In this document: one piece after another, positions 28,870-51,152 of the stretch
Layout of the letters: the number at the start of each line of letters is the position of its first letter
How positions within the stretch are numbered: the stretch's first letter is position 1
NCBI RefSeq assembly: GCF_017168145.1
Contig: NZ_JADQTL010000010.1
Coordinates: 496,001 to 560,000 of the forward strand
Origin: Anaerovorax sp. IOR16
GTDB taxonomy: Bacteria; Bacillota; Clostridia; Peptostreptococcales; Anaerovoracaceae
DNA: 64,000 nucleotides
Reading direction: 5' to 3'
Program-made: the position numbers and the translations under genes
Notes under the pieces: model-generated
The model's input: only the letters and a program-made list of their open reading frames with translations
Databases searched by the model: none
Told to the model about the DNA's origin: nothing

Positions 28870-30075
28870 TTACTGCGGAAGAGATGCTAAGTATTCTTTC
28901 ACTCGTCCATAGTAGATACGTAAGAACTTATTGGCACCTGCAGTCATGTAGACATAATAAGGTTTACCTTGAGCACGTTTCTTGTCCATAAATAGATACA
29001 CGGCATCATCCTGTGGCTTATTTTTGATAAGAGCGTCCATGACCTGAAACAAAGTTTTACGCAAGGTAGAAGATCCTCTTTTGGAAGCATGAACACTCTT
29101 TTGTTCATAGGTTCCAGATTGATTTACACCTGGATCGACACCAGCAAATGCTGTAATGGCGCCTTTGTGAGTAAAGCGTGTAACATCTCCAATTTCAGCA
29201 ATTAGCTGAGGACCTAGAGACGAACCAACGCCTTTCATTTCCATGACGATAAAGTACTCTGGCAGTTTAGATGCAGTTTCATGCATTAAAGAACGAAGTT
29301 GTTCCACTGTTTGAGAGGCGATATTTAGCTGTTCTACAGCCTGTTTAACAATCAGTTTGGTTAAGTCATCTTTAGGAAGTACGGGAATAAGCTCCTTAGC
29401 TGCACCATAGATTTCTTCAGCTTTTGATTTACTGAAGTTGTACTTCTTTCTCTTGCACCATTTCTGATAATGGTCGGTGAAAGCATTTAGAGACATTTTA
29501 CGAACACAGTCCACATGCCAGTATGTAGTGGCGAAATCAACCCATTTCTGACTACCATCATTACGGGCAGGGCTATCGAAGTAAGTATTAACACCTGGAT
29601 AGGTTTGATCAAGAATGCCGATAAAGTTGTTTTTCATAGCCGTTTTGTGCTTCATATAGAAACCAAACTGACGGTTCATTGTTTTTAACTGATTGCGTAT
29701 TTCATCCATAAGACAATACTGTTTCAAATCAGTCCAGCTGTCAAGAGCATAACGAGCTATTTTAACAGCATCTGCCTTATCAGACTTGACTTTACGGAGA
29801 GAATTATCTCCGAAATCTTTAATAAGTTTTGGATTTACGGCACTTACGAAAAGATTTGCCTGAGAAAGCTCATGAGCTAATGGTTCGTAATAACGACCAG
29901 TATGCTCCATGACAATCCGTGATTCACCTTCAATGGATTTGATTTGTTCAATTAAGAAACTAATTTCACTTGAAGTGTGGTGAATCTCAAAAGGTGAAGA
30001 AACAATCTCACCATATGGGCGGAGAATAGCAATCATGCTTTTGCCCTTAGAAACATCAATACCTACTGCGTTCAT
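28870..30075 (-). CDS. IS110-family transposase (DEDD recombinase)
   Basis: 401 residues, apparently intact. The N-terminal RuvC-like DEDD domain shows G-I-D-V-S-K-G, then M-E-H-T-G-R-Y-Y, then K-S-D-K-A-D-A-V-K-I-A. The C-terminal Tnp-20 domain has M-K-G-V-G-S-S-L-G, F-A-G-V-D-P-G-V-N-Q-S-G and R-G-S-S-T-L-R-K, which includes the likely catalytic serine. Family members act with a bridge RNA that pairs with donor and target DNA. AGGAGTG lies before the start. No frameshift is seen, so it may be active. Confidence 0.93.
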   Translation of the reverse strand: MNAVGIDVSKGKSMIAILRPYGEIVSSPFEIHHTSSEISFLIEQIKSIEGESRIVMEHTGRYYEPLAHELSQANLFVSAVNPKLIKDFGDNSLRKVKSDKADAVKIARYALDSWTDLKQYCLMDEIRNQLKTMNRQFGFYMKHKTAMKNNFIGILDQTYPGVNTYFDSPARNDGSQKWVDFATTYWHVDCVRKMSLNAFTDHYQKWCKRKKYNFSKSKAEEIYGAAKELIPVLPKDDLTKLIVKQAVEQLNIASQTVEQLRSLMHETASKLPEYFIVMEMKGVGSSLGPQLIAEIGDVTRFTHKGAITAFAGVDPGVNQSGTYEQKSVHASKRGSSTLRKTLFQVMDALIKNKPQDDAVYLFMDKKRAQGKPYYVYMTAGANKFLRIYYGRVKEYLASLPQ

Positions 30076-37384: not shown

Positions 37385-37499
37385 TATATTAAAGTGTCTC
37401 GGTAACAGTGCAAATATGAAGTATGAAGTGTATGTTAGGTACTGCGAGATATTTAGAAGTTAATTTTATTAAAACTATAAAAAAATGGAGGATGAAAAG

Positions 37500-38546
37500 A
37501 TGCAAAACGTAAAAGTAATCATTTGGGGACTTGGTGCTATGGGCGGCGGTATGGCTGACATGCTGCTTAAGAAAAAGGGCGTTGATATTGTAGGTGCTGT
37601 AGGCCGTGGTGCAAAAATCGGTAAGAGCATGTATGATTTCATTAAGACTGAAAAAGGTGACAGACCTGAGGTACTTATTGGTGCTGCTGAAGATGTAATC
37701 AAGCCAGGTGCTGCTGACATCGTTCTACTTTGCACAGATTCTTTCACAAGAAATGCATTTGATAAATTAAAGTTCATCATGGAACAGAAGATCAATGTTA
37801 TCACTTCTGCAGAAGAAATGGCTTATCCAAAAGCTCAGGAACCAGAACTTGCTGCACAGTTAGATGAAATTGCAAAAGCAAACGGCGTATCTTGCTTAGG
37901 AACTGGTATCAACCCAGGTCTTATCATGGACTTACTTGTATTGATCATGACTGGTTGTATGGAAGATGTAGAACACATCGTTTCCAGACGTGTTAACTCT
38001 TTATCTCCATTTGGACCTGCTGTAATGGAAGAACAGGGTATCGGTGTTACTCTTGAAGAATTCAAGAAGGGTCATTTAGCTGGTCACGTTGGATTCGCAG
38101 AATCCATGGGCATGATTGCTGATGGTATTGGTTGGGAAATCGACAAGTTCGAGCAGTCTATGGATCCAATTGTAACTGATGTAGATAGAAAATCCTCTTA
38201 TGGATTTGCAAAGGCTGGTAACGTTGCTGGTGTTGCAATGAAAGCGTTTGGATATAGAGATGGCGAATTGATGATCGAAATGGATCACCCTCAGCAGATT
38301 GAACCAGAACAGGTTGGAGTACAGACTGGTGACTATGTAATCATCAAGGGAACTCCAAACATTAATATGGTTAACAGCCCAGAAGTTGAAGGCGGAATCG
38401 GAACAATCGCAATGTGCGTTAACATGATTCCTCAGGTTATCAATGCAAGACCTGGTCTTCACACTATGTTAACTCTTCCAGTTCCAAGAGCTATCATGGG
38501 TGACATGAGAGATCAAATTTGCGAAGAAGCAAAAATTGTAAAATAA
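37500..38546 (+). CDS. ord: 2,4-diaminopentanoate dehydrogenase
   Basis: 348 residues. It oxidatively deaminates 2,4-diaminopentanoate to 2-amino-4-oxopentanoate with NAD(P)+. The Rossmann motif V-I-I-W-G-L-G-A-M-G-G-G-M lies at the N-terminus, and G-T-G-I-N-P-G-L-I-M-D-L near residue 140 is typical of this dihydrodipicolinate-reductase-like family. Identification is secured by the following ortA, ortB, oraS and oraE. GGAGG is 8 bp before the ATG at 37500. First gene of the sigma-54-driven operon. Codon choice is more GC-rich than in neighbouring genes, as for a highly expressed protein. Confidence 0.95.
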   Translation: MQNVKVIIWGLGAMGGGMADMLLKKKGVDIVGAVGRGAKIGKSMYDFIKTEKGDRPEVLIGAAEDVIKPGAADIVLLCTDSFTRNAFDKLKFIMEQKINVITSAEEMAYPKAQEPELAAQLDEIAKANGVSCLGTGINPGLIMDLLVLIMTGCMEDVEHIVSRRVNSLSPFGPAVMEEQGIGVTLEEFKKGHLAGHVGFAESMGMIADGIGWEIDKFEQSMDPIVTDVDRKSSYGFAKAGNVAGVAMKAFGYRDGELMIEMDHPQQIEPEQVGVQTGDYVIIKGTPNINMVNSPEVEGGIGTIAMCVNMIPQVINARPGLHTMLTLPVPRAIMGDMRDQICEEAKIVK

Positions 38547-38725: not shown

Positions 38726-39025
38726 ATGGTTAAAAAAGGTGAATGGGTGCGTATTCACTCAATCGTACTGGAGCCATCTGGAAGAGCTCCAAAAGTTCCG
38801 GATGACACAAGAGCATGTCCGCTTGAAATGTGGACAAAAGGATTTTTACAGGAAGATGCAGAAATTGGCGACGAAGTTACAGTTAAAACTGCAGCTAATC
38901 GTTTAGAAAAGGGAAAACTTCTTGAAGTTAACCCATATTATACACATAGCTATGGCACGTTTGTTCCTGAATTGATTCAGATTGATAAGCAGCTAAGAGA
39001 AATCATGTTTGGAGGTGACAAATAA
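38726..39025 (+). CDS. ortA: 2-amino-4-oxopentanoate thiolase, alpha subunit
   Basis: 99 residues. Small subunit of the PLP-dependent thiolase that splits 2-amino-4-oxopentanoate with CoA into acetyl-CoA and D-alanine. Features include V-L-E-P-S-G-R-A-P-K-V-P-D-D-T and N-P-Y-Y-T-H-S-Y-G-T-F-V-P-E-L, both OrtA hallmarks. AAAGGAG precedes the ATG. Its last base is the first base of ortB, so the two subunits are translationally coupled. Confidence 0.94.
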   Translation: MVKKGEWVRIHSIVLEPSGRAPKVPDDTRACPLEMWTKGFLQEDAEIGDEVTVKTAANRLEKGKLLEVNPYYTHSYGTFVPELIQIDKQLREIMFGGDK

Positions 39026-40425
39026 TGGCATTGGCAAAAGATTATGCTTCCGTTATGGGAAGATCCAACGAAATTATGAAAAAAGCTCTTGGCTTAGATT
39101 ATACAGATTTTGAATCAGGTTCCGTAGCATTTGATTACGAAACATTAATGAAGTCAACAGGATATACATTAGATGAAGTTGCTAAAATTCAAGGAAGAAC
39201 AGGCGTTGGTAATACACCATTGTTAGAACTGAGAAACTTATCTGCTCTTTCAAGAAAATATGCAAAACCAGGATATGGTGCTCGCATTTTTGCTAAGGAT
39301 GAAGCAGCTAATCCATCTGGTTCCTTCAAGGCAAGAAGAGCAGCTTGCGCTGTTGCTCATGCAAAGAAACTGGGATACAAAGGTGTTATTGCAGCTACAT
39401 CCGGAAACTATGGTGCAGCAGTTGCATCTCAGGCAGCAATGCAGGGATTGGAATGCATCATTGTTCAGGAATGCTATGACTCTCGTGGAGTTGGTCAACC
39501 GGAAATCGTTGAAAAAGCAAGAAAGTGTGAAGCTTTTGGAGCAGAAGTTGTTCAGTTAACAGTTGGACCTGAATTATTCTATTCCTTCTTGTCAATTTTG
39601 GAAGATACAGGATACTTCAACGCTTCCTTATACTCACCATTTGGTATTGCTGGCGTAGAAACATTAGGATATGAAATTGCTATGCAGTGTCGTGAGTACA
39701 TTGGAAAAGATCCTGATATGGTTGTATGTACAAATGCTGGTGGCGGAATGATGACAGGAACCGCTCGTGGTCTGATGAAGGCTGGAGCAACAGATACGAA
39801 ATATGTTGCAGCTTCTATCGATTTAACAGGACTGCACATGGCTTCCGATAAACAGTTTAACCGTAAATCATGCACAACAGGTCACACTGGATTTGGTGTT
39901 CCATATGCTACAGACCCAGATCATTCAGATGTTCCAAGAAGTGCAGCAAGACCTCTTCGTTACATGGATCGTTATGTAACAGTAACACAGGGTGAAGTAT
40001 TCTATATGACAGAAGCTCTTGCAAACCTAGAAGGTATTGAAAGAGGACCTGCTGGAAATACTGCATTGGCAGCTGCATTCTCATTAGCTCAGGAACTTCC
40101 TGAAGATGCAGTTATTGTTATCAGTGAAACTGAATACACAGGTGCTGGTAAACACATTCAGCCACAATTATCTTTTGCAAGAGAAAATGGTATTGATATT
40201 TGCTTTGGCGATCCTAAGGATGATAAGCCAGGTGAAAATATCGTATTGCCAAAGGATCCAAGCTACATCAAGTGCAAAGATGCTGACATTAATCGCTTCA
40301 GAACTTCCTTAATTAAAAAGGCTTGCGGTAAACATGAAGGCACTCCAACAGATGCTGACTTAGAATTCCTTGCACTAGAAACAAAGACAGATGTTGCTTT
40401 TGTTAAAGAAGTTTTAGGACTCTAA
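39025..40425 (+). CDS. ortB: 2-amino-4-oxopentanoate thiolase, beta subunit
   Basis: 466 residues. PLP fold type II enzyme related to threonine synthase. The PLP lysine is in N-P-S-G-S-F-K-A-R-R-A near residue 98, and the phosphate-binding glycine loop N-A-G-G-G-M-M-T-G near residue 238. Catalyses the thiolytic cleavage together with OrtA. It starts in an ATAATG overlap with ortA, preceded by GGAGGTGA. The product acetyl-CoA yields ATP by way of acetyl phosphate, making this the energy-conserving step. Confidence 0.95.
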   Translation: MALAKDYASVMGRSNEIMKKALGLDYTDFESGSVAFDYETLMKSTGYTLDEVAKIQGRTGVGNTPLLELRNLSALSRKYAKPGYGARIFAKDEAANPSGSFKARRAACAVAHAKKLGYKGVIAATSGNYGAAVASQAAMQGLECIIVQECYDSRGVGQPEIVEKARKCEAFGAEVVQLTVGPELFYSFLSILEDTGYFNASLYSPFGIAGVETLGYEIAMQCREYIGKDPDMVVCTNAGGGMMTGTARGLMKAGATDTKYVAASIDLTGLHMASDKQFNRKSCTTGHTGFGVPYATDPDHSDVPRSAARPLRYMDRYVTVTQGEVFYMTEALANLEGIERGPAGNTALAAAFSLAQELPEDAVIVISETEYTGAGKHIQPQLSFARENGIDICFGDPKDDKPGENIVLPKDPSYIKCKDADINRFRTSLIKKACGKHEGTPTDADLEFLALETKTDVAFVKEVLGL

Positions 40426-40938: not shown

Positions 40939-43149
40939 ATGGCTTACGATAAATTAGAAAAAGATAAGAAAATTGATATCGAGCTTATCTTACAGGACCT
41001 CGATAAATATGCACCAAGAAGAAAAGGATGGGTTTGGAGAAAACCTGTAGCAGACTTAGAAATGGGACCTTTCTCATATAAGGATGCAACTGAGCCATTG
41101 AAGCAGAGTGTACCGCTACCTCCTGCTAAATATTTTAACAACATTGACCCGCAGCCAGCTCCGGTTATTACGACTGAAATCGCTTCCGGAAGATTTGAAG
41201 ACGATATCAGAAGAATGAGAATGGCAGCTTGGCATGGTGCAGACCATATCATGGTAATTCGTACTGCAGGACAATCTCATATGGACGGATTAATTGAAGG
41301 TACTCCGCAAGGTATCGGAGGCGTTCCTATTACAAGAAAGCAAGTTAGAGCTCAGAGAAAAGCATTGGATTTAATTGAAGATGAAGTTGGTCGTCCAATC
41401 AACTATCATTCTTATGTATCCGGTGTTGCTGGTCCTGATGTAGCTGTAATGTTTGCAGAAGAAGGAATTAACGGTGCGCACCAGGATCCACAGTACAATG
41501 TTCTTTACAGAAATATCAACTGTGTTCGTTCTTTCGTAGATGCTTGCGAATCAAAGAAAGTATTAGCATGGGCAGAAATTGCACAGATCGATGGAGCTCA
41601 CAATGCTAACGCAACAGCTAGAGAAGCATGGAAGGTAATGCCAGAACTTATCGTTCAGCATGCAATTAACTCATTATTCTCAGAAAAGGTTGGAATTAAA
41701 CCAGAGAATATTTGCTTGTCAACAGTACCTCCAACAGCGACTCCTGCACCATGCGTGTATATGGATCTTCCTTATGCAGTAGCGCTTAGAGATTTCTGCA
41801 GAAGATACAGAATGAGAGCACAGATGAACACGAAGTACATCGACTCTTCCGCTAGAGAAGCAACTGTAACACATGTATTGAATATGTTTATTTCAAAGCT
41901 TACAAGAGCAGATATCCAATCTACAATTACTCCTGATGAAGGTAGAAACGTTCCTTGGCATATCTACAACATTGAAGCTTGTGATACAGCAAAACAAACA
42001 TTAATTGGTCTTGATGGCTTAATGGAAATGGTTGAATTAAAGAATGACGGTCCATTAATTGAAAAATCAAGAGAAATTAGAGAAAGAGCTTGCTTATTCA
42101 TGGAAGAAATCGTTGAAGTAGGCGGTTACTTTGAAGCAGTACAAGAAGGATTCTTCGTTGACTCTGCAATGTATCCGGAACGAAACGGTGACGGTATTGC
42201 AAGAAAGATTGAAGGCGGTATCGGATATGGATTCGTTTATGAAAGAGACGAAGACTATATGGCTCCAGTAACGGCTCACTATGGTTACAATAATGTGGAA
42301 CAGTACGGCGGAGATCCTAAGGATCCATCAGCATTAATCGATGGCTGTACGTTTGAAGACAGAAACAAGATCGTTTATATTGATGAGCTTGATGATGATA
42401 ATGTAAACACAAGAATGGATGAAAATGCGAAATATAGAAATTCAAACTTCATCAAGCCAGAAATGGAATGGTTAGCAGATGGTACAGTAATGCTTACAAT
42501 GTGCATTCCTGCAAATAAGAGAACTGCAGAAGTAGTTGCTGTAGAAATCGGTAATAAGTTAGGCCTGGAGGATCCAGAAGTAATTTCAAGAGAAGTACTT
42601 CAAGAAGCAGAAGGTACAAGAATTGAAATGAAAGGAAAGCTCAAATTTGACGTTGATCTTTCTACGCTTGTAATTCCACCTGAACCAGTATATCTAACTG
42701 ACGAAGAAATCAGAAACGATGTAAAAGAACATCCGTTAAAGGTTGTTTGTGGTACAGTTGGTGAAGATGAGCATTCCGTAGGTCTTCTTGAAATCATTAA
42801 CATTAAGCATGGTGGTATCGAAAGATTTGGTATTGAGTGTATATACCTTGGTACTTCTGTTCCAGTTGAAAAGTTAGTTGATGCAGCAGTAGAGCTAAAT
42901 GCGGAAGCTATCCTTGCATCCACAATTATCTCTCATGATAACATCCATTACAAGAACATGAAGAGAATCAATGAACTTGCAATAGAAAAAGGAATCAGAG
43001 ATAAGGTAATGATTGTTGCAGGCGGTACGCAGGTAATTCCTGAAGAAGCTATGAAGACCGGTATTGATGCTGGTTTTGGAAGAAACTCACATGGTATAGA
43101 TGTTGCTTCCTTCTTAGTCGAAGAAAGAATCAGAAGAAGAAATAAATAA
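40939..43149 (+). CDS. oraE: D-ornithine 4,5-aminomutase, beta (E) subunit
   Basis: 736 residues. Adenosylcobalamin- and PLP-dependent radical aminomutase. A TIM-barrel part precedes a C-terminal Rossmann B12 domain. The D-x-H-x-x-G motif is D-E-H-S-V-G, with the axial ligand at H612; a lysine lies exactly 11 residues later (K623), the same spacing as the cobalt-binding histidine and PLP-binding lysine described for the Acetoanaerobium sticklandii enzyme. The end G-I-D-A-G-F-G-R-N-S-H-G fits B12 domains. AGGAGG precedes the ATG. A reactivase gene follows. Confidence 0.96.
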   Translation: MAYDKLEKDKKIDIELILQDLDKYAPRRKGWVWRKPVADLEMGPFSYKDATEPLKQSVPLPPAKYFNNIDPQPAPVITTEIASGRFEDDIRRMRMAAWHGADHIMVIRTAGQSHMDGLIEGTPQGIGGVPITRKQVRAQRKALDLIEDEVGRPINYHSYVSGVAGPDVAVMFAEEGINGAHQDPQYNVLYRNINCVRSFVDACESKKVLAWAEIAQIDGAHNANATAREAWKVMPELIVQHAINSLFSEKVGIKPENICLSTVPPTATPAPCVYMDLPYAVALRDFCRRYRMRAQMNTKYIDSSAREATVTHVLNMFISKLTRADIQSTITPDEGRNVPWHIYNIEACDTAKQTLIGLDGLMEMVELKNDGPLIEKSREIRERACLFMEEIVEVGGYFEAVQEGFFVDSAMYPERNGDGIARKIEGGIGYGFVYERDEDYMAPVTAHYGYNNVEQYGGDPKDPSALIDGCTFEDRNKIVYIDELDDDNVNTRMDENAKYRNSNFIKPEMEWLADGTVMLTMCIPANKRTAEVVAVEIGNKLGLEDPEVISREVLQEAEGTRIEMKGKLKFDVDLSTLVIPPEPVYLTDEEIRNDVKEHPLKVVCGTVGEDEHSVGLLEIINIKHGGIERFGIECIYLGTSVPVEKLVDAAVELNAEAILASTIISHDNIHYKNMKRINELAIEKGIRDKVMIVAGGTQVIPEEAMKTGIDAGFGRNSHGIDVASFLVEERIRRRNK

Positions 43150-43224: not shown

Positions 43225-44757
43225 ATGAAAGTCGACGTATTAGTAGCCGAAATCGGCTCAACAACAACGGTAGTAAATGCATTTAAAGATATAAATACAG
43301 AGGACCCTATTTTTTTGGCTCAAGGGCAGGCTCCAACATCGGTAATGGACGGCGACGTAAGAATTGGACTTCAAGGCGCAATTGATGATTTGTGCAAAAA
43401 AATGGGCATTGATTCCTTAGAATACGATGAAATGCTTGCGACTTCTTCGGCAGCAGGCGGATTAAAGATGACCGTGCATGGCCTTGTTTATGATATGACT
43501 GCAAAAGCAGCAAAGGAAGCGGCACTTGGTGCCGGGGCTATTATTCATTACGTAACAGCAGGAAAGCTGAGACGTACAGACATAAAAAAGATTAAAGAAA
43601 TAAAACCGAATTTAATTCTCATAGCCGGCGGTGTAGACTATGGGGAGCGGGATACTGCGGTGTATAACGCAGAAATGATTCGAAATATGGGATTAAATAC
43701 ACCGATTATTTATGCAGGAAATGTAGAAAATCAAGAAGAAATCAAACTGATCTTCGATGAGGAGAGCGGTTCAAAATTATATATTGTAGAGAACGTGTAT
43801 CCTAAAATTGATGACCTGAATGTAGAACCGGCAAGAAAAGTTATTCAGGACGCCTTTGAAGATCACATTATTCATGCACCTGGAATGGAGCATGTGCGGG
43901 ATATGGTAAATGGGCCGATCATTCCGACACCAGGTGCGGTTATGGAAGCAACGAAGCTGTTAAATGAATGTATAGGAAACGTTGTTGTTTTGGATGTCGG
44001 CGGAGCAACTACAGATGTGCATTCGGTATGCGAAGAATCCGATCAAATTGCCAGAATTATGATCAGCCCGGAACCGAAAGCAAAGCGTACGGTGGAGGGT
44101 GACCTTGGTGTTTACGTAAATATGAAAAATATTGTGGAATTGATTGGAGAAGAAAAGCTTGCAGAAGACTTACCAAATATTAATTTACAAACAGTAATGG
44201 AAAGTTACAAGGCAATTCCAAAAAATGATGACGAACGTGCTTTTGTAGAGCGTTTGACAAAAGAAGCCGTAGTTCGTTCGGTAGAACGCCATGCAGGACA
44301 AATTCGATACATATATGGTCCGTCCGGCAGAAGTACGGTTGCAGAAGGTAAGGATTTAACACAGGTAAAATATATCATTGGAACGGGTGGTGCATTGACA
44401 AGACTTCCTCACAGAGTAGAGATTATGGAGGACATAGCAAAGCACAATGAAACTGGATTACTCTTGTTCCCAAGTGAAAGTGCTCGTATTTTAGTTGATA
44501 ATGACTACATTATCGCTTCTTTGGGCGTACTATCTAAAAAATATAAAGAAGGAACAATTAAGCTTTTAGAAAAGAGCTTGAATTTTAAATTCCCAGCGAA
44601 AAAAGACGATGGTCCGATTCGTTCTGCAAAAGCAGCTTATTTACAGGAGTTAGAACGACTGGAAGCCATTGAAAATAAGAAGAAAAAAGAGTTGGAAGAA
44701 CATTTGCGTGAAGAAGGTTATGAATGCATTAATGGAGAATATGTAAAAAAAGAGTAA
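43225..44757 (+). CDS. GlmL/MutL-like reactivating ATPase for the B12 aminomutase
   Basis: 510 residues. Actin/Hsp70-like ATPase fold: phosphate-binding loops V-A-E-I-G-S-T-T-T near residue 8 and V-L-D-V-G-G-A-T-T-D near residue 257. The family (MutL/GlmL) sits beside B12-dependent mutases and is thought to exchange inactivated cobalamin. Position between oraE and orr indicates the ornithine aminomutase as client. The C-terminus is a charged helix rich in Lys and Glu. It is unrelated to DNA-repair MutL despite the shared name. Confidence 0.9.
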   Translation: MKVDVLVAEIGSTTTVVNAFKDINTEDPIFLAQGQAPTSVMDGDVRIGLQGAIDDLCKKMGIDSLEYDEMLATSSAAGGLKMTVHGLVYDMTAKAAKEAALGAGAIIHYVTAGKLRRTDIKKIKEIKPNLILIAGGVDYGERDTAVYNAEMIRNMGLNTPIIYAGNVENQEEIKLIFDEESGSKLYIVENVYPKIDDLNVEPARKVIQDAFEDHIIHAPGMEHVRDMVNGPIIPTPGAVMEATKLLNECIGNVVVLDVGGATTDVHSVCEESDQIARIMISPEPKAKRTVEGDLGVYVNMKNIVELIGEEKLAEDLPNINLQTVMESYKAIPKNDDERAFVERLTKEAVVRSVERHAGQIRYIYGPSGRSTVAEGKDLTQVKYIIGTGGALTRLPHRVEIMEDIAKHNETGLLLFPSESARILVDNDYIIASLGVLSKKYKEGTIKLLEKSLNFKFPAKKDDGPIRSAKAAYLQELERLEAIENKKKKELEEHLREEGYECINGEYVKKE

Positions 44758-44856: not shown

Positions 44857-45942
44857 ATGTATCCAAGATTAACGGTTCATTTAACAAAAATCAAACAAAA
44901 TCTTGATGCGGTAAGCAAAATTACACATGGCGGCAACTGTTCTATGATGATTGTAACAAAAGGTTTTTGCGCCGATAAGAGAATTGTAGAACTGATTGCA
45001 GAGCATCCGGGAGTGAATTTTTTAGCAGATTCTCGTGTGCAGAACATTAAGACTTATGCAGAGTTTGCAAGAAAAAACGGAAAAGAGACTGTGCTACTGA
45101 GATTACCGATGGGAAGCGAAGCAGAAGAAGTAGTTAAGTATGTTGATTTAAGCTTTAATTCCGAACTTTCAACAATTACTTTATTAAATGAAGCTGCGAA
45201 AAAGCAAAATAAAAAACATAAAGTACTATTAATGATTGACTTAGGTGATCTAAGAGAAGGTATTTTCTTTAAAGACGAAGATCAGATTATGGATACCGTA
45301 TCTGAAATTCTAAAGATGGAATGCATTGAACTATATGGTATTGGAGTTAATTTAACTTGCTATGGAGCAGTGATTCCTAAAAATGATAACTTATCCATCT
45401 TAGTAGACATTGCAAGAAAAATTGAAGATCGATTTAATATCTCTTTATCAATGGTATCCGGAGGAAATTCCAGTTCTATTTACTTAATAGGGAAAGACGA
45501 ATTACCAGAAGGTATTAATAACCTTCGTCTTGGCGAATCCTTCATTTTAGGAAATGATACTGCATACGGTACAAAAATTGAAGGAACGTGCTCTGATGCT
45601 TTAATTTTAGAAGCGGAGATCATTGAGCTCAAGAGTAAACAGTCCATTCAAATTGGTGAAACTGGTGTGGATGCATTTGGTCAAAAACCAGTTTACGAGG
45701 ATCGTGGCATTATTAAACGTGCGATCTTAGCAGTTGGAAAGCAAGACATTGATATTGACAGTATGACACCACTGGATGAAAAAATTGATATTCTAGGTGG
45801 CAGCTCCGACCATTTAATATTAGATGTAACAAATTCAGATACTGCTTATAAAGTAGGAGATTGTATCAAGTTTGAGCTTGGATATGGCGGAATGTTGAAG
45901 GCCTTTACAAGCGCATATGTAGGTACAAATTATGAAGAATAA
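44857..45942 (+). CDS. orr: Ornithine racemase
   Basis: 361 residues. Alanine-racemase-like, fold type III PLP enzyme that converts L-ornithine to D-ornithine, the true substrate of OraSE. The PLP lysine is in M-I-V-T-K-G-F-C-A-D near residue 34; G-G-N-S-S-S-I-Y near residue 205 and L-R-L-G-E-S-F-I-L-G near residue 228 are phosphate-binding and conserved regions of the Orr/YhfX-type racemases. AAAGGAGG precedes the ATG. Last gene of the ornithine cluster, closed by a terminator. Specificity for ornithine rests on context. Confidence 0.92.
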   Translation: MYPRLTVHLTKIKQNLDAVSKITHGGNCSMMIVTKGFCADKRIVELIAEHPGVNFLADSRVQNIKTYAEFARKNGKETVLLRLPMGSEAEEVVKYVDLSFNSELSTITLLNEAAKKQNKKHKVLLMIDLGDLREGIFFKDEDQIMDTVSEILKMECIELYGIGVNLTCYGAVIPKNDNLSILVDIARKIEDRFNISLSMVSGGNSSSIYLIGKDELPEGINNLRLGESFILGNDTAYGTKIEGTCSDALILEAEIIELKSKQSIQIGETGVDAFGQKPVYEDRGIIKRAILAVGKQDIDIDSMTPLDEKIDILGGSSDHLILDVTNSDTAYKVGDCIKFELGYGGMLKAFTSAYVGTNYEE

Positions 45943-45980
45943 AAGTAAGTAAATGAAAGAATAAAATAAGACAATCTAGG

Positions 45981-46042
45981 CCTTTGGCAGAAAATGTAAG
46001 TATCATAAATAATACATCATTTTATTGCCAAAGGTTTTTTAT
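45981..46042 (+). terminator. Terminator of the ornithine operon
   Basis: CCTTTGGCA (45981-45989) pairs with TGCCAAAGG (46026-46034), with an inner AATGTA/TACAT stem in the long loop, and is followed by TTTTTT. Confidence 0.85.
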
Positions 46043-46168
46043 CTACTAAGGAAAATATGATAAAAAAATGTTTTCTCCTTGTAAAAAACCTTTTCTTTGT
46101 TTCTTGGCTAAAATCTAAAAAAAAGGAAAAAATACGAAGAAATAAAGTTAATTATAGGAGGAAAAATT

Positions 46169-47077
46169 TTGAGATATATCAAAGAATTTTTCTTGTATCA
46201 TAAAAAAATTAGTTTTTTCTTTTTCTTTTTGTTCTTTTTGTATTTTGGGGCTATGTTGTCAGGAAGAGCAGTAGAATCTTCGGCACACATTACACCCGAT
46301 TATCCAAAAGAAGAGATTATTCAAATTTTTTTGAAAGAAAAAATCAATGAAACAGATTATAAAAAAATTTTATTTCAGACTGGTTTAGGAAAGGCAGCGG
46401 TCGATCAGCTCAGAGAAACAAAACCAAAGATAGAAAACACAGATTATGCACAATATACGGCATGGATGCTTAAAATTGAAACCATACAAGAAAGCTTTTT
46501 TCAAGAAATTGATTTTACACACAAAGCGAATACTTTTATCTCTTGTGAAGAAACATTAATTGACAAAGACGGAAATCGTATAGAGGGAATCAAATTTGTT
46601 GATCTAGAAGACGGTGATATATTAGTCACCAAATGCTCTCGGGTATATGGGTGGAGAAATGGGCATGCTGCTTTGGTTGTGGATGCTAAAAAAGGAAAAA
46701 CGATAGAATCGGTAGTTTTAGGAGAAAATTCATGCATTCAAAACATCAACAAGTGGAAATATTATCCCGATGTTATGGTTTTTCGATTAAAAGGAGCTTC
46801 TAAAACTTATCGTAAAAAAATTGCAGAATGGGCAATACAGAATTTGGAAAATTTACCATACCGATTTTCTGTAGGAGTTTTATCAAATAAAGAAGGCAAA
46901 GAGGGAACGATCGAAGGAACGCAATGTGCACATTTGGTTTGGGCTGCATATCGGCAGTTTGGATATGATTTAGATAGTGATGGAGGGAAAATTGTAACAC
47001 CAAAGGATTTGGCGAATAGTTCTTGGCTGGAAGTCGTACAATTGTATGGGGTAAACCCAAATGAGCCTTGGAAATAA
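46169..47077 (+). CDS. Membrane-anchored permuted papain-like (YiiX/NlpC-P60 superfamily) hydrolase
   Basis: 302 residues, TTG start 6 bp after AGGAGG. A phenylalanine-rich transmembrane segment (about 14-30) anchors it. The catalytic part has G-D-I-L-V-T-K, H166 in G-H-A-A-L-V-V-D and C253 in T-Q-C-A-H-L-V-W-A. Histidine before cysteine is the order of circularly permuted papain-like enzymes rather than canonical NlpC/P60. Such proteins cleave amide bonds, in peptidoglycan or lipids. Residues 40-120 form a helical region of no known family. It stands alone; substrate unknown. Confidence 0.78.
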   Translation: MRYIKEFFLYHKKISFFFFFLFFLYFGAMLSGRAVESSAHITPDYPKEEIIQIFLKEKINETDYKKILFQTGLGKAAVDQLRETKPKIENTDYAQYTAWMLKIETIQESFFQEIDFTHKANTFISCEETLIDKDGNRIEGIKFVDLEDGDILVTKCSRVYGWRNGHAALVVDAKKGKTIESVVLGENSCIQNINKWKYYPDVMVFRLKGASKTYRKKIAEWAIQNLENLPYRFSVGVLSNKEGKEGTIEGTQCAHLVWAAYRQFGYDLDSDGGKIVTPKDLANSSWLEVVQLYGVNPNEPWK

Positions 47078-47155
47078 TCATGACTTTCATTGACAGAATG
47101 AATATGGAAGATTATGATAAAATTAGACATGTGCAATAAGGGAGGCACTAAGGCG

Positions 47156-48805
47156 ATGAAATTTTTTAAAAATACACAAAAGGATCAAAATGACATTGCT
47201 GTAATAAAAAATAACGATAGAGAATTGGCCGATAAATATTTAGAATTGATCAGTGGATTTTCTTTTTCTGTTGACGAATTGGATATTGAAATGAATGAAA
47301 TTCTACTTCGAATTCAAGGACTTACATCAGAATCAAAAGAACAAGCTTCGAGCATGATTTCTATGAATGATGTGATCGATGTTATTTACACCACAGTTCA
47401 GGAAAGCAGGATAAAAGCATCTCAAGCATCTGAAATTTCTAATGATACCTATGAAAATATCGTAAATAAGAAAAAAGAGTTTGAGGAAATCACAAAGAGC
47501 TTAAGTGCAACCGGTGAAAATCTAAATTCTGCGAAAAAATCCTTCATTGAATTAGAAGGAAAAACGAGAACTGCCAAATCTCTTGTAGATCGGATTGAGC
47601 ATATTTCTGCGCAAACCAATTTACTCGCTTTAAATGCATCAGTTGAGGCTGCGCGAGCCGGTGAGCATGGTCGTGGTTTTTCAGTCATTGCAGAGGAAGT
47701 AAGGCAGCTTGCAAGTGAGACAAGCGAGGTAAACAAAATAATCAGCGGAATTATTGCTGAGATTACAGCTTCTGTAGATCGATCCAAAAAGGATGTTCAT
47801 CAAGTAATAGAAAACATCGAGTTTCAAGGTTCCAAAATTGCAAATACCATTCAAGATTTTGCTATGATTGAAAGTGTTTCAAAAGATTCGAGTGAAATGA
47901 GTCGTTGGATTGCTGATAACTCACAGGAACTGGAAACTTCCATTTATTCAGCGAAAGAGGTAATTGGAAAAGTAACTGCTTCAGTTGATTGTTCTTCCCA
48001 TAAAATAGCAGAGCTTTCACAGTCTATTAAAGAAGAAGCAAAATCAGCCAATCATATTAAGCAAAGGATTGAGCAGCTTGAGCATCTTAATTTTCAACTT
48101 ATGGAACAAAAAGAGTACAGGGATGATTCAACCATTGTTGTTGCTACTTCACCATATGAACCATATTTTATTTATGATGAGAAAACAAAACAAGTTTCCG
48201 GAATGGATTATGATTTAATTCAAGAGGTATTTAAGGATTCAAATTATAAAGTTGCATTTAAAATAGTACCTTGGGACACTTCAATTAAAATGGTGAAAAA
48301 TGGGATATCAGATATTCTTCCTGCTATATCATATGATAAAACCAGAGAGTCTTATTTAAGATTCAGTGACAGCTATCGTTTTGAAAGTCCATATGCTTTT
48401 TATACCAGTCGTAATCAAGCGATAGAAGTAAATCAACTTTCCGATATGGATGGAAAAAGGGTTGGAGTCATTTCTGGATATACATATTTTTCCGAACTCT
48501 ATCAATTAAATATAAAGATTGAAGAAAGCAGCAAAGAGGATATTCTGTTTAAAAAATTGTTAAAGGGTCAGCTTGATATTGTTGTATTGGAGATGGATTC
48601 CGGTGATTATCAAGTAAAGAAACTGAATATGGAGCATTTGATACGCAAGGAACCTTATGTTTTTATTTTAAAAGATCCCGTAAAGACGTATTTAGGCTTT
48701 GGTATTGTTAAAAACCACGATTTGATATGTGAATATTTTAATAAAAAAATTAAAGAAATGCAGAGAAATGGAATGCTGCAAAAAATTGTTAATAAATATA
48801 AGTAA
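47156..48805 (+). CDS. Soluble chemoreceptor fused to a C-terminal solute-binding (SBP3) domain
   Basis: 549 residues without a signal peptide or membrane segment. The N-terminal two thirds are a methyl-accepting signalling hairpin, with tip [19 protein letters not shown] near 152-170. From residue 326 an amino-acid-type periplasmic-binding-protein fold begins ([12 protein letters not shown], then S-G-M-D-Y-D-L, then I-L-P-A-I-S-Y-D). SBP3 domains are normally exported; here the domain must work in the cytosol. The ATG at 47156 follows AAGGGAGG. No CheA or CheW gene lies in the window. It may sense an intracellular amino acid. Confidence 0.88.
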
Positions 48806-48827
48806 TAAGTAAAAGGAGTGAGGAAAC

Positions 48828-50018
48828 ATGATTTCAAAGAAAATGGTTGCCTTTGTTGAAGGTAGTTCAACAATTCGTGCGATGTTTGAAGAAGGTAAGC
48901 GATTAGCTGAAAAATACGGTGCAGAAAATGTGTATGATTTTAGTTTGGGAAATCCAAATGTACCGGCACCAAAAAAAGTTAAGGATGCCATCATTGATAT
49001 TTTAAATGAAGAAGAATCCACTTTTGTTCATGGTTATATGAACAATTCAGGATACGAAGACATTCGGGATGCAATTGCTTCTTCCATAAATAAAAAATAT
49101 GGAACTGCATTTAATCACAATAACATTATTATGACGGTAGGAGCTGCCGGAGGAATTAATGTTATTTTAAAAACTTTACTGAATCCGAATGATGAAGTGA
49201 TGGTTTTTGCACCATATTTCGGAGAATACCGCAGCTATGCAGCCAATTACGATGCAAATTTGGTTGTTGTATCTGCTAATACAAAAGATTTTCAGCCAAA
49301 CCTTGCAGAATTCCGCGAAAAAATAACACCAAAAACTAAGGTTGTCATTATCAATTCACCAAACAACCCAACCGGTGTGGTTTATACCGAGGATACCATT
49401 AAAGAGTTAGCTTCGATTTTAAATGAAAAACAGAAGGAATTTGGTACAGATATTTATTTAGTTGCAGATGAGCCATACAGAGAACTTGCTTACGATGGAG
49501 TAAAAGTGCCTTATGTCACACCATATTATAATAATACGATTGTAGGTTATTCCTATAGTAAATCCCTGTCTCTTCCGGGAGAACGTATTGGTTATTTGGT
49601 AATTCCAAGTGAAGCCGCAGATTTTGAGAATGTGATTGCTGCAGCTAATGTTGCCACTCGTATTTTAGGATTTGTTAATGCTCCGTCACTATTGCAAAGA
49701 GTTATTGGAAGATGTTTAGATGCTGAAGTAAATGTTGCAGCTTACGATAAAAATAGAGAGACGCTATATAAGGGGCTTTGTGATGCTGGTTATGAATGTA
49801 TTAAACCGGAAGGTGCCTTCTATCTATTTGTAAAAGCACCAATGGAAAGCGATACCGAATTTTGTCAGGCTGCTAAGAAATATAATTTACTTCTTGTACC
49901 GGGAAGCGCATTTGCTTGCCCAGGTTATGTAAGAATTGCTTATTGTGTTGCATATGACACCATAGTCAATGCACTTCCAAAATTTAAAGATTTAATGGAT
50001 GAAATCAAAGCAAAATAA
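48828..50018 (+). CDS. Class I/II PLP-dependent aminotransferase
   Basis: 396 residues. Fold type I: S-P-N-N-P-T-G-V-V near residue 181, A-D-E-P-Y-R-E-L near residue 208, and the PLP lysine in Y-S-Y-S-K-S-L-S-L-P-G-E-R near residue 242. Motifs agree with aspartate/aromatic or alanine-type aminotransferases; exact specificity cannot be read. AAAGGAG precedes the ATG. In this amino-acid fermenter it may deaminate alanine or link amino donors to pyruvate (inference). Followed by a strong terminator. Confidence 0.9.
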   Translation: MISKKMVAFVEGSSTIRAMFEEGKRLAEKYGAENVYDFSLGNPNVPAPKKVKDAIIDILNEEESTFVHGYMNNSGYEDIRDAIASSINKKYGTAFNHNNIIMTVGAAGGINVILKTLLNPNDEVMVFAPYFGEYRSYAANYDANLVVVSANTKDFQPNLAEFREKITPKTKVVIINSPNNPTGVVYTEDTIKELASILNEKQKEFGTDIYLVADEPYRELAYDGVKVPYVTPYYNNTIVGYSYSKSLSLPGERIGYLVIPSEAADFENVIAAANVATRILGFVNAPSLLQRVIGRCLDAEVNVAAYDKNRETLYKGLCDAGYECIKPEGAFYLFVKAPMESDTEFCQAAKKYNLLLVPGSAFACPGYVRIAYCVAYDTIVNALPKFKDLMDEIKAK

Positions 50019-50045
50019 AAAAATAAAAAAACGTTACATATAATA

Positions 50046-50103
50046 AATACCTCAAAGAACTGAGATATCTGGCAGATCAAAGTTCTTTGAGGTATTTTAT
50101 TTT
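50046..50103. terminator. Bidirectional terminator between aminotransferase and UroD-like genes
   Basis: AATACCTCAAAGAACT (50046-50061) pairs perfectly with AGTTCTTTGAGGTATT (50081-50096), followed by TTATTTT. It lies between two convergent stops. Confidence 0.88.
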
Positions 50104-50111
50104 AAATTATT

Positions 50112-51152
50112 TTATTCGTATTTTCCGTAAGTTCTTGCTTCTTCCGCCATAACTTTTGCAAATTCCAAATCTAAGCTGGAAGGATATTCACATCCTGTAG
50201 CAAGGACAAAACCACCGTCCTTCTTATAAGCATCAATTTGTTCTCTGCACTTCTCTCTTAGTTCTTCTTCGGAAGCAGCACATAGCCAACCTGGCTCAAT
50301 ATGACCCATTAAAGTAATGGTTTTTCCGTATTTTTCTTTAATTGCAGCCATGTCCGCACAATCAGGCGGCATATGCTGATAGGAGATTAATACTGGATTC
50401 ATTCTCTTAATTTGTTCTTCAAAGTATACACCCTGACCACAGTTATGTAGCATTAACATTGCACCATGTTCACGAACTGTATTGGATAATTCTTCAATGT
50501 AAACACCTTCAAATTCATCCCACATTTTAGGACTCATGATGGATCTTGAAGCATACAAGGTATCAAACATGATTCCATGACAGCCTGCTTCGATTAAAGC
50601 AATACAGAATTCTTTTAATGTATCTGTGATCGCTCTTAATGCAGGGTGTAATTTTTTCGGATTCTTATATAAGTCGAGGAACATTTGCTCTTGACCTCTC
50701 ATCATACTTAGAACACCTAAAGGACCGAAAACAAAGCCTACAATTGGCATTTCCTTACCTTTTGCTTCATATAAAAGACGAGCAAGTTCAATGTGTTCAC
50801 TCATTCTTGGTGCAGTTCTTGGATCAATCACTTTAATGTTTTCATAATCATCTGCAGTAGGAATCAAGCGTTTATCCATATTTGGGTGTGCAGCATTTTC
50901 TTTGCTGTAAACGATTTCTTGTCCCCAGCCTGCAGCTTCTACGGATAAATCAACCAATGTACTGATACAGTCAGCACCGATTTCTTCGGTTGCTTTGATG
51001 ATGGCTTCTGCACATTTGTTGACATCCTTAGACCATTCTTCATAAGAAATGCCTAAGGTTTTTCTAGATACGCTATTTAATAGCGGATAAACAGGTACTC
51101 TGTCTGCTTCTTTATGCTGTAAAATTAATGTCATACGTTCTAAAGAATTCAT
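50112..51152 (-). CDS. Uroporphyrinogen decarboxylase-family (MtaA/CmuA-like) protein
   Basis: 346 residues with the URO-D fold. M-N-S-L-E-R-M and A-D-R-V-P-V-Y-P open it; L-H-N-C-G-Q-G near residue 238 gives the H-x-C of the zinc site of MtaA-type methylcobamide:CoM or corrinoid methyltransferases, and L-M-G-H-I-E-P-G-W follows. True HemE motifs are missing. Relatives move methyl groups between corrinoid proteins and thiols or demethylate aromatics. No corrinoid protein gene is adjacent. It is divergent from a PocR-AraC regulator, its probable controller. Codon use is GC-richer, like the ornithine operon. Confidence 0.85.
   Translation of the reverse strand: MNSLERMTLILQHKEADRVPVYPLLNSVSRKTLGISYEEWSKDVNKCAEAIIKATEEIGADCISTLVDLSVEAAGWGQEIVYSKENAAHPNMDKRLIPTADDYENIKVIDPRTAPRMSEHIELARLLYEAKGKEMPIVGFVFGPLGVLSMMRGQEQMFLDLYKNPKKLHPALRAITDTLKEFCIALIEAGCHGIMFDTLYASRSIMSPKMWDEFEGVYIEELSNTVREHGAMLMLHNCGQGVYFEEQIKRMNPVLISYQHMPPDCADMAAIKEKYGKTITLMGHIEPGWLCAASEEELREKCREQIDAYKKDGGFVLATGCEYPSSLDLEFAKVMAEEARTYGKYE

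Follow-up and report, generated by a model that had tools for sequence, protein, structure and literature searches.

A predicted cytosolic chemoreceptor with a C-terminal solute-binding domain in Anaerovorax sp. IOR16 and its relatives, some in cyanophycinase loci

What would a chemoreceptor sense if its solute-binding domain, of a kind normally found outside the cell, were attached to the C-terminal end of a soluble signalling hairpin? The question is raised by a gene on the forward strand (47,156–48,805) of a 64,000-nucleotide stretch of the genome of Anaerovorax sp. IOR16 (contig NZ_JADQTL010000010.1, positions 496,001–560,000), which we refer to in full as the window. The gene consists of one uninterrupted frame of 549 codons whose ATG at 47,156 lies behind a good ribosome-binding site (GGGAGG, 47,140–47,145), and from its reading frame, Pfam matches and hydropathy it encodes a soluble chemoreceptor (MCP) of 549 residues with a C-terminal SBP_bac_3 domain. 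The MCPsignal domain (PF00015) spans residues 88–270 (E 1.3e-28, 100.5 bits, cut-off 34.6) and SBP_bac_3 spans residues 327–548 (E 1.2e-19, 70.8 bits, cut-off 26.4), and there is no CZB domain among the Pfam matches of the receptor at E 0.001. In the AlphaFold2 model (mean pLDDT 80.4, pTM 0.48) residues 12–318 form one helical stretch that is followed by a mixed alpha/beta domain at residues 326–549. The original prediction had placed the hairpin first and the SBP3 domain at the C-terminus, and both Pfam and the model confirm that order.

The same prediction held that the protein is soluble and has neither signal peptide nor membrane helix, and this is borne out, as the highest Kyte-Doolittle mean over any 19 residues is 0.85, a maximum that indicates no such segment. 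A membrane helix or signal peptide missed upstream was considered and ruled out by the hydropathy and by the alternative start, an in-frame ATG at 47,114 that adds only 14 residues, which are not hydrophobic. An N-terminus that starts further upstream with membrane helices is thus excluded for the window gene, yet seven of the 16 usable proteins of the receptor family described below have one N-terminal helix (six by hydropathy and G671 by eye), the other nine having none. In the one-helix members basic residues follow the helix, which should leave both hairpin and SBP domain in the cytosol. With no hydrophobic N-terminal segment, the SBP_bac_3 domain of the window receptor carries no export signal and is hence best described as a sensor domain of that fold and not as a transport SBP, and the receptor as a whole appears, from its sequence, to lie wholly in the cytosol. 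A chimeric assembly was also rejected, since a full-length relative with 74% identity exists in another genus and the fusion is therefore not an artefact.

The helical signalling hairpin (residues 12–318, 47,189–48,109 on the forward strand) has the features of a receptor that could feed a chemotaxis pathway. Its kinase-contact tip (residues 147–190, 47,594–47,725) is conserved and aligns well with that of 11 transmembrane MCPs encoded elsewhere in the genome. Relative to at least 10 of these 11, the N-terminal arm is longer by 14 residues, or two heptads (residues 99–112, 47,450–47,491), and the C-terminal arm carries a matching insertion of 14 residues (residues 223–236, 47,822–47,863). A symmetric two-heptad step of this kind is what would be expected if the hairpin is genuine and belongs to a different length class. 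The tip lies 77 residues from the EQ-type site of the N-terminal arm in all 11 MCPs and 91 residues from it in the receptor and the four relatives measured, two of the latter having been measured from aligned KQND and CQVS stretches put into the pattern and not from an EQ pair. The methylation region keeps the EQAS-type pair in the N-terminal arm, the glutamates of the C-terminal arm do not align (by eye), and CheR is encoded in the genome.

There are 14 MCP matches in the genome, and the arm comparison covers 11 of the 13 other MCP regions, L037 (missed by the motif) and L038 (short and soluble) having been dropped. The CheW-domain matches include one 712-aa frame of the size of CheA, which has CheR and a frame as long as a CheW as neighbors, as well as another frame, of 313 aa, that would fit CheV, so that CheA, CheW and CheV are named here by frame size and place only. 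Together with CheR and two flagellin-domain matches they indicate that a chemotaxis pathway exists for the receptor to feed. The dropped region L038 (contig C8, 311,500–315,000) encodes a second soluble chemoreceptor of 273 aa with no membrane helix, the Pfam match of which crosses its stop codon; the genome thus has at least two cytosolic receptors. In the alignment L038 also has residues in most of the arm-insertion columns (11 and 14 residues), and the two are perhaps of one length class.

Pfam, the AlphaFold2 model and structure comparison agree that the C-terminal part (residues 326–549, 48,131–48,802, forward strand) is an SBP_bac_3 Venus-flytrap domain. Among solved structures it resembles glutamine-, arginine-, ornithine- and LAO-binding proteins (Z 18–20 over 209–223 residues), and also the SBP3-type sensor domains of kinases and of RmcA. 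When the family is aligned with the LAO-binding protein, Arg397 (48,344–48,346) falls at LAO Arg77 and is Arg in all 16 members, Asp is found at the LAO Asp30 position in all 16, and Ser392 falls at LAO Ser72 (Ser in 12, Ala in three, Gly in one). The position of Trp373, and of LAO Phe52, holds Trp in 14 members and Phe in two, and that of Tyr334 holds Tyr in 14 and Asn in two, while LAO Asp11, which we take to be a side-chain contact, and Gln122 have no counterpart in this alignment. The ten LAO positions that do have a counterpart, presumably all of them ligand contacts, are more conserved than the domain as a whole, with a mean entropy of 1.03 bits against 1.83 over the 212 domain columns (permutation p 0.0012), a result that is favored by leaving out Asp11 and Gln122.

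The position of LAO Asp161, assumed here to hold the amino group of the ligand, is Glu, Asp or Asn across the family. In the window receptor it is Glu479 (48,590–48,592). Glu or Asp occupies it in six of the nine members that have no adjacent cyanophycinase gene, and Asn occupies it in all seven members that do have one as compared to three of the nine others (Fisher p 0.011, kinship ignored). The binding site looks like a working amino-acid-type pocket of two sub-types, although the pocket alone does not name the ligand. The assignment of an amino-acid-type SBP3 domain therefore stands, based on the pocket residues at LAO positions and their conservation above the domain average.

How far does this protein depart from known systems? 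The LAO-, glutamine- and arginine-binding proteins share its fold (Z 18–20) and its Arg77 and Ser72 positions, but they are exported for transport, whereas the receptor domain has no export signal and is fused to a chemoreceptor. Moreover, LAO has both Asp161 and Asp11, and the receptor has Glu at the first and no counterpart of the second. An SBP3-like fold serves as a sensor in BvgS (3mpk), a histidine kinase (3h7m) and RmcA (7ejg), with Z 18.7–19.5 to the receptor domain. We take the SBP3 sensors of 3h7m, 7ejg and 3mpk to be N-terminal and outside the membrane, and 3mpk carries a periplasmic label; the SBP3 domain of the receptor is instead C-terminal and inside. The closest likeness in architecture is to TlpD of Helicobacter pylori, which is cytosolic and has a hairpin followed by a C-terminal sensor on the descending arm (PMC12871147, in excerpt), but its sensor is a four-helix zinc (CZB) domain and it has an additional N-terminal PAS domain, while that of the receptor is a Venus flytrap. 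A C-terminal sensor on a soluble receptor is accordingly already known from TlpD with its CZB domain (excerpts of PMC12871147 and PMC13001251).

In the excerpted text of PMC8466855, soluble receptors make up 14% of receptors and, citing Collins 2014, their sensors are PAS (47%), CZB (8%) and protoglobin (7%) domains, with the remaining domains at "less than 1%". SBPs are extracytosolic according to the part of PMC9602780 seen, which adds that their Pfam profiles also match cytosolic proteins and sensor domains. Among the matches listed for the open-licence literature, no title or abstract deals with an MCP that has a C-terminal SBP3 domain, which may be mentioned elsewhere, and none deals with a chemoreceptor in a cyanophycin locus. 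The receptor is made of known parts in an unusual order and place, and it is a new functional lead.

The receptor family is sparse. When the full-length protein was used for searching, the family to which the window genome belongs yielded matches in 2 genomes out of 148 (E 1e-40), the order in 13 out of 297 (E 1e-35), the class in 4 out of 391 and the phylum in 2 out of 398 (E 1e-33). The samples overlap, each containing the window genome, and scoring was limited to 9, 4, 3 and 3 candidates per genome for family, order, class and phylum, respectively, so that these counts are lower bounds. There are at least 17 distinct receptor loci, that of the window included, with G262 contributing two. 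The relative in G071 is 74% identical to the window protein, whereas the other 15 reach 30–34%. Nearly all of the relatives align over most of their length. The exceptions are G222, which has an in-frame stop and was dropped from the tree and the pocket counts to leave 16 usable proteins, and G253 (L019, 5,137–6,585), where a receptor copy of 483 aa ends inside the SBP domain, either by natural truncation or through an assembly error. A scan of named genomes with a single peptide pattern gave eight loci, seven of which were the same as loci already found, as judged by translated sequence; by this measure Fusibacter bizertensis is G266 and Acidaminobacter sp. JC074 is G290. The eighth, L022, was rejected as a family member because it is a 1,106-aa protein whose SBP3-like part is N-terminal and which also has a membrane helix and PAS-like parts (by eye).

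The genes around the relatives point to a possible ligand. In 7 of the 17 receptor loci, from three taxonomic families, a cyanophycinase gene over the cut-off (126.6 bits) lies directly upstream of the receptor on the same strand: G266 (158.6 bits), the second copy of G262 (152.1), G823 (177.5), G502 (142.3), G253 (160.1), G671 (158.4) and G296 (156.3). Most of these cyanophycinases start with a hydrophobic segment (by eye) and four of the five scanned with Pfam have a C-terminal LysM domain, which suggests that they are probably secreted. An isoaspartyl dipeptidase over the cut-off is encoded in four of the seven loci (G266, G262, G823 and G296), and a YfcC-type basic amino acid carrier in six, over the cut-off in G266, G262, G502 and G823, as a contig-end fragment in G671 (384 bits, cut-off 500) and by sequence alone in G296; no such carrier was seen near the receptor of G253. 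A sigma-54 activator is present in the loci of G266, G671 and G502 (Pfam) and in others by eye, an SBP_bac_5 protein follows the receptor in G823, and genes that by eye resemble those for flagellin and fliD are close to the operon of G262. Sets of cyanophycinase, carrier and dipeptidase genes are loci for scavenging cyanophycin, a storage polymer rich in arginine (PMC10206079, in part), and the seven family members resemble the known utilization loci (cyanophycinase, iadA, transporter) in that all adjoin cyanophycinase, most with the carrier and some with iadA. The words "chemotaxis" and "methyl-accepting" do not occur in the excerpted text of that paper. The window genome differs from these loci as it has no cyanophycinase at E 1e-15.

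The linked receptors fall into three groups of the receptor tree, namely G296, G266 and G253 (support 100/100), the second copy of G262 with the unlinked G294 (100/100), and G671 and G502 (100/100) with G823 (89/96). With a support of 35/79, this tree would also be compatible with a single origin of the link between receptor and cyanophycinase. It is adjacency alone that is striking and not co-occurrence at the genome level. In the order sample all four receptor genomes that have an over-cut-off cyanophycinase have it adjoining the receptor, and four of the seven over-cut-off cyanophycinases with long frames (430–512 aa) adjoin a receptor, while no genome with a receptor match contains one of those with short frames (271–325 aa). 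At the level of whole genomes, receptor and cyanophycinase do not co-occur significantly in this sample (4 of 13 receptor genomes versus 36 of 284 others, p 0.08). The receptor is missing from the cyanophycinase operons of G281 and G156, and G207 likewise has a cyanophycinase but no receptor. Frames of 801 and 716 aa with sub-cut-off similarity to cyanophycinase adjoin isoaspartyl dipeptidase genes in G277 (C83) and G296 (C77), and from their sequence these are possibly fused or divergent cyanophycinases.

The window copy has a different neighborhood. Upstream of it on the forward strand is an ornithine fermentation cluster with ord (37,485–38,546) and ortB (39,025–40,425), both over the cut-off, oraE for a subunit of D-ornithine 4,5-aminomutase (40,939–43,149; 1373.7 bits, cut-off 800), a gene for the GlmL-related ornithine degradation protein Or-4 (43,225–44,757; 746.6 bits, cut-off 600) and orr for ornithine racemase (44,857–45,942; 515.6 bits, cut-off 480). 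An IS110-family transposase (28,870–30,075) lies upstream of this cluster. Between orr and the receptor is a gene for a 302-aa protein (46,169–47,077, forward strand), which also follows orr in a same-genus genome; this protein has no Pfam match, an N-terminal hydrophobic stretch (by eye) and weak similarity to LnsA (22.5 bits, cut-off 225). Downstream, after only 22 bases, is a gene for a class I aminotransferase (PRK06836; 48,828–50,018, forward strand; 593 bits, cut-off 376), which judging by this spacing is probably co-transcribed with the receptor, and no terminator-like site was found in 45,800–50,200. A MtaA/CmuA-like methyltransferase gene (50,112–51,152) follows the aminotransferase on the minus strand and falls within a second gap when the window is aligned with the same-genus genome, G088.

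In G088 or-4, orr, the 302-aa gene and the aminotransferase follow one another as they do in the window, but the receptor is missing. Similarity ends at ~47,136 and resumes at ~48,801, with 132 unmatched bases in G088, and thus the difference between the two is almost exactly the receptor gene. A sigma-70-like promoter (TTGACA-17-TATGAT, 11 of 12 positions; 47,090–47,118, forward strand) is a consensus match only, as there are 18 promoter-like sites in the region versus 17.9 in shuffles, but the same motif is seen by eye at the corresponding position of G088 and the receptor hence sits between the aminotransferase and its likely promoter. Since the site exists in G088 without the receptor, the placement of the window copy beside ornithine genes is weaker evidence for its function, and the relative with 74% identity has different neighbors in G071. 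Elsewhere in the family the receptor of G303 adjoins, and that of G290 is one gene from, sub-cut-off paralogues of Orr (394 and 398 bits, respectively). In the order sample each of the 13 receptor genomes encodes an over-cut-off Orr, as do 147 of the 284 others (p 0.0003), but this is confounded by kinship because Orr is common in the order and 11 of the 13 receptor genomes come from one family. The window genome, while without a cyanophycinase, does have an operon of isoaspartyl dipeptidase, YfcC and a sigma-54 regulator ~60 kb upstream of the receptor (L059 4,573–9,368, contig C10), and its gene content suggests that perhaps beta-aspartyl dipeptides from another source are used.

We propose, with somewhat more confidence than doubt, that the flytrap domain of this soluble receptor binds an amino-acid-type metabolite of the cytosol and feeds the signal to CheA, with arginine, ornithine or beta-Asp-Arg as the favored ligands because the relatives adjoin cyanophycinase genes and the window copy adjoins ornithine fermentation genes. 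We infer that a cytosolic ligand would close the Venus-flytrap domain and that closure would be passed along the attached descending arm of the hairpin to the tip, which would control CheA through CheW. As the descending arm (to residue 318) is closely followed by the strand that opens the domain (from residue 326), closure could twist or stiffen the arm and so change the tip. Signalling from a C-terminal sensor to the tip is proposed here by likeness to the CZB domain of TlpD, for which the full structure provides a model (PMC12871147, in excerpt) and of which a reconstituted complex with CheW and CheA is mentioned in PMC6715182. Swimming would then track an internal nutrient pool and not the outside level, and the receptor would report the success of uptake and breakdown, with the metabolite assumed to act as an attractant.

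Sensing of an internal amino acid pool, as originally predicted, is therefore plausible from the sequence and is strengthened by the cyanophycinase genes that adjoin 7 of the 17 family loci. The term "energy taxis" finds no evidence in these data, and metabolite sensing is the plainer term. Nor can ornithine in particular be singled out, as the original prediction had suggested, since LAO Asp11 has no counterpart, the 74% relative is located elsewhere and the ornithine cluster of a same-genus genome has no receptor. Ornithine as a ligand deduced from orr alone is further weakened by the presence of Orr over the cut-off in 160 of the 297 genomes of the order.

The same soluble receptor might of course respond to some other cytosolic ligand, such as another amino acid, an organic acid or a keto acid, in which case the ornithine and cyanophycin neighbors would say little about the window copy. 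This is possible but rather unlikely. It would account for the other neighbors, mostly identified by eye, in G071, G148, the first copy of G262, G277, G294, G272 and G222, for the variation among Glu, Asp and Asn at the LAO Asp161 position, and for a site that is occupied or empty within one genus. However, seven cyanophycinase-adjacent loci in three taxonomic families are far above chance for a single gene out of thousands, and the pocket Arg is invariant.

Much less probable in our assessment is that the SBP-like domain has lost the ability to bind small ligands and has become a module for dimerization or protein docking. While the pocket Tyr is replaced by Asn in two of the 16 members, two LAO contacts are without a counterpart and the domain of G253 is cut short in a protein of 483 aa, such a module is difficult to reconcile with the conservation of the ten alignable pocket positions above the rest of the domain (p 0.0012). 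We regard as marginally less probable still that the receptor serves an output other than swimming, for example a regulatory CheA pathway, or that it is a little-used acquired gene. Its arms exceed those of the 11 aligned transmembrane MCPs by two heptads, so that it may not mix with them, and its distribution is patchy (at E 1e-40, 2 of the 148 family genomes), but the CheW-domain matches yield only one CheA-sized frame, the tip is conserved, and the G262 operon lies near the flagellin- and fliD-like genes noted above. The binding of an amino-acid-type metabolite for control of swimming is hence the reading that we favor.

A wider and distinctly tentative proposal is that the family reads the intracellular product of scavenged cyanophycin (beta-Asp-Arg, arginine or ornithine), which would allow anaerobes to move toward cyanophycin-rich material in response to what they have digested and imported, and that the window copy is an offshoot that was re-placed by ornithine fermentation and tuned via Glu479 to a free amino acid. 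The short list of ligands given by the cyanophycin neighbors makes what cytosolic receptors sense a testable matter for this receptor family. A cytosolic solute-binding sensor, if it works, would be a new kind of input that reads a nutrient already imported, and it could couple swimming to uptake and breakdown. The organisms that bear the receptor may thus set their course by nutrients that have already entered the cell.
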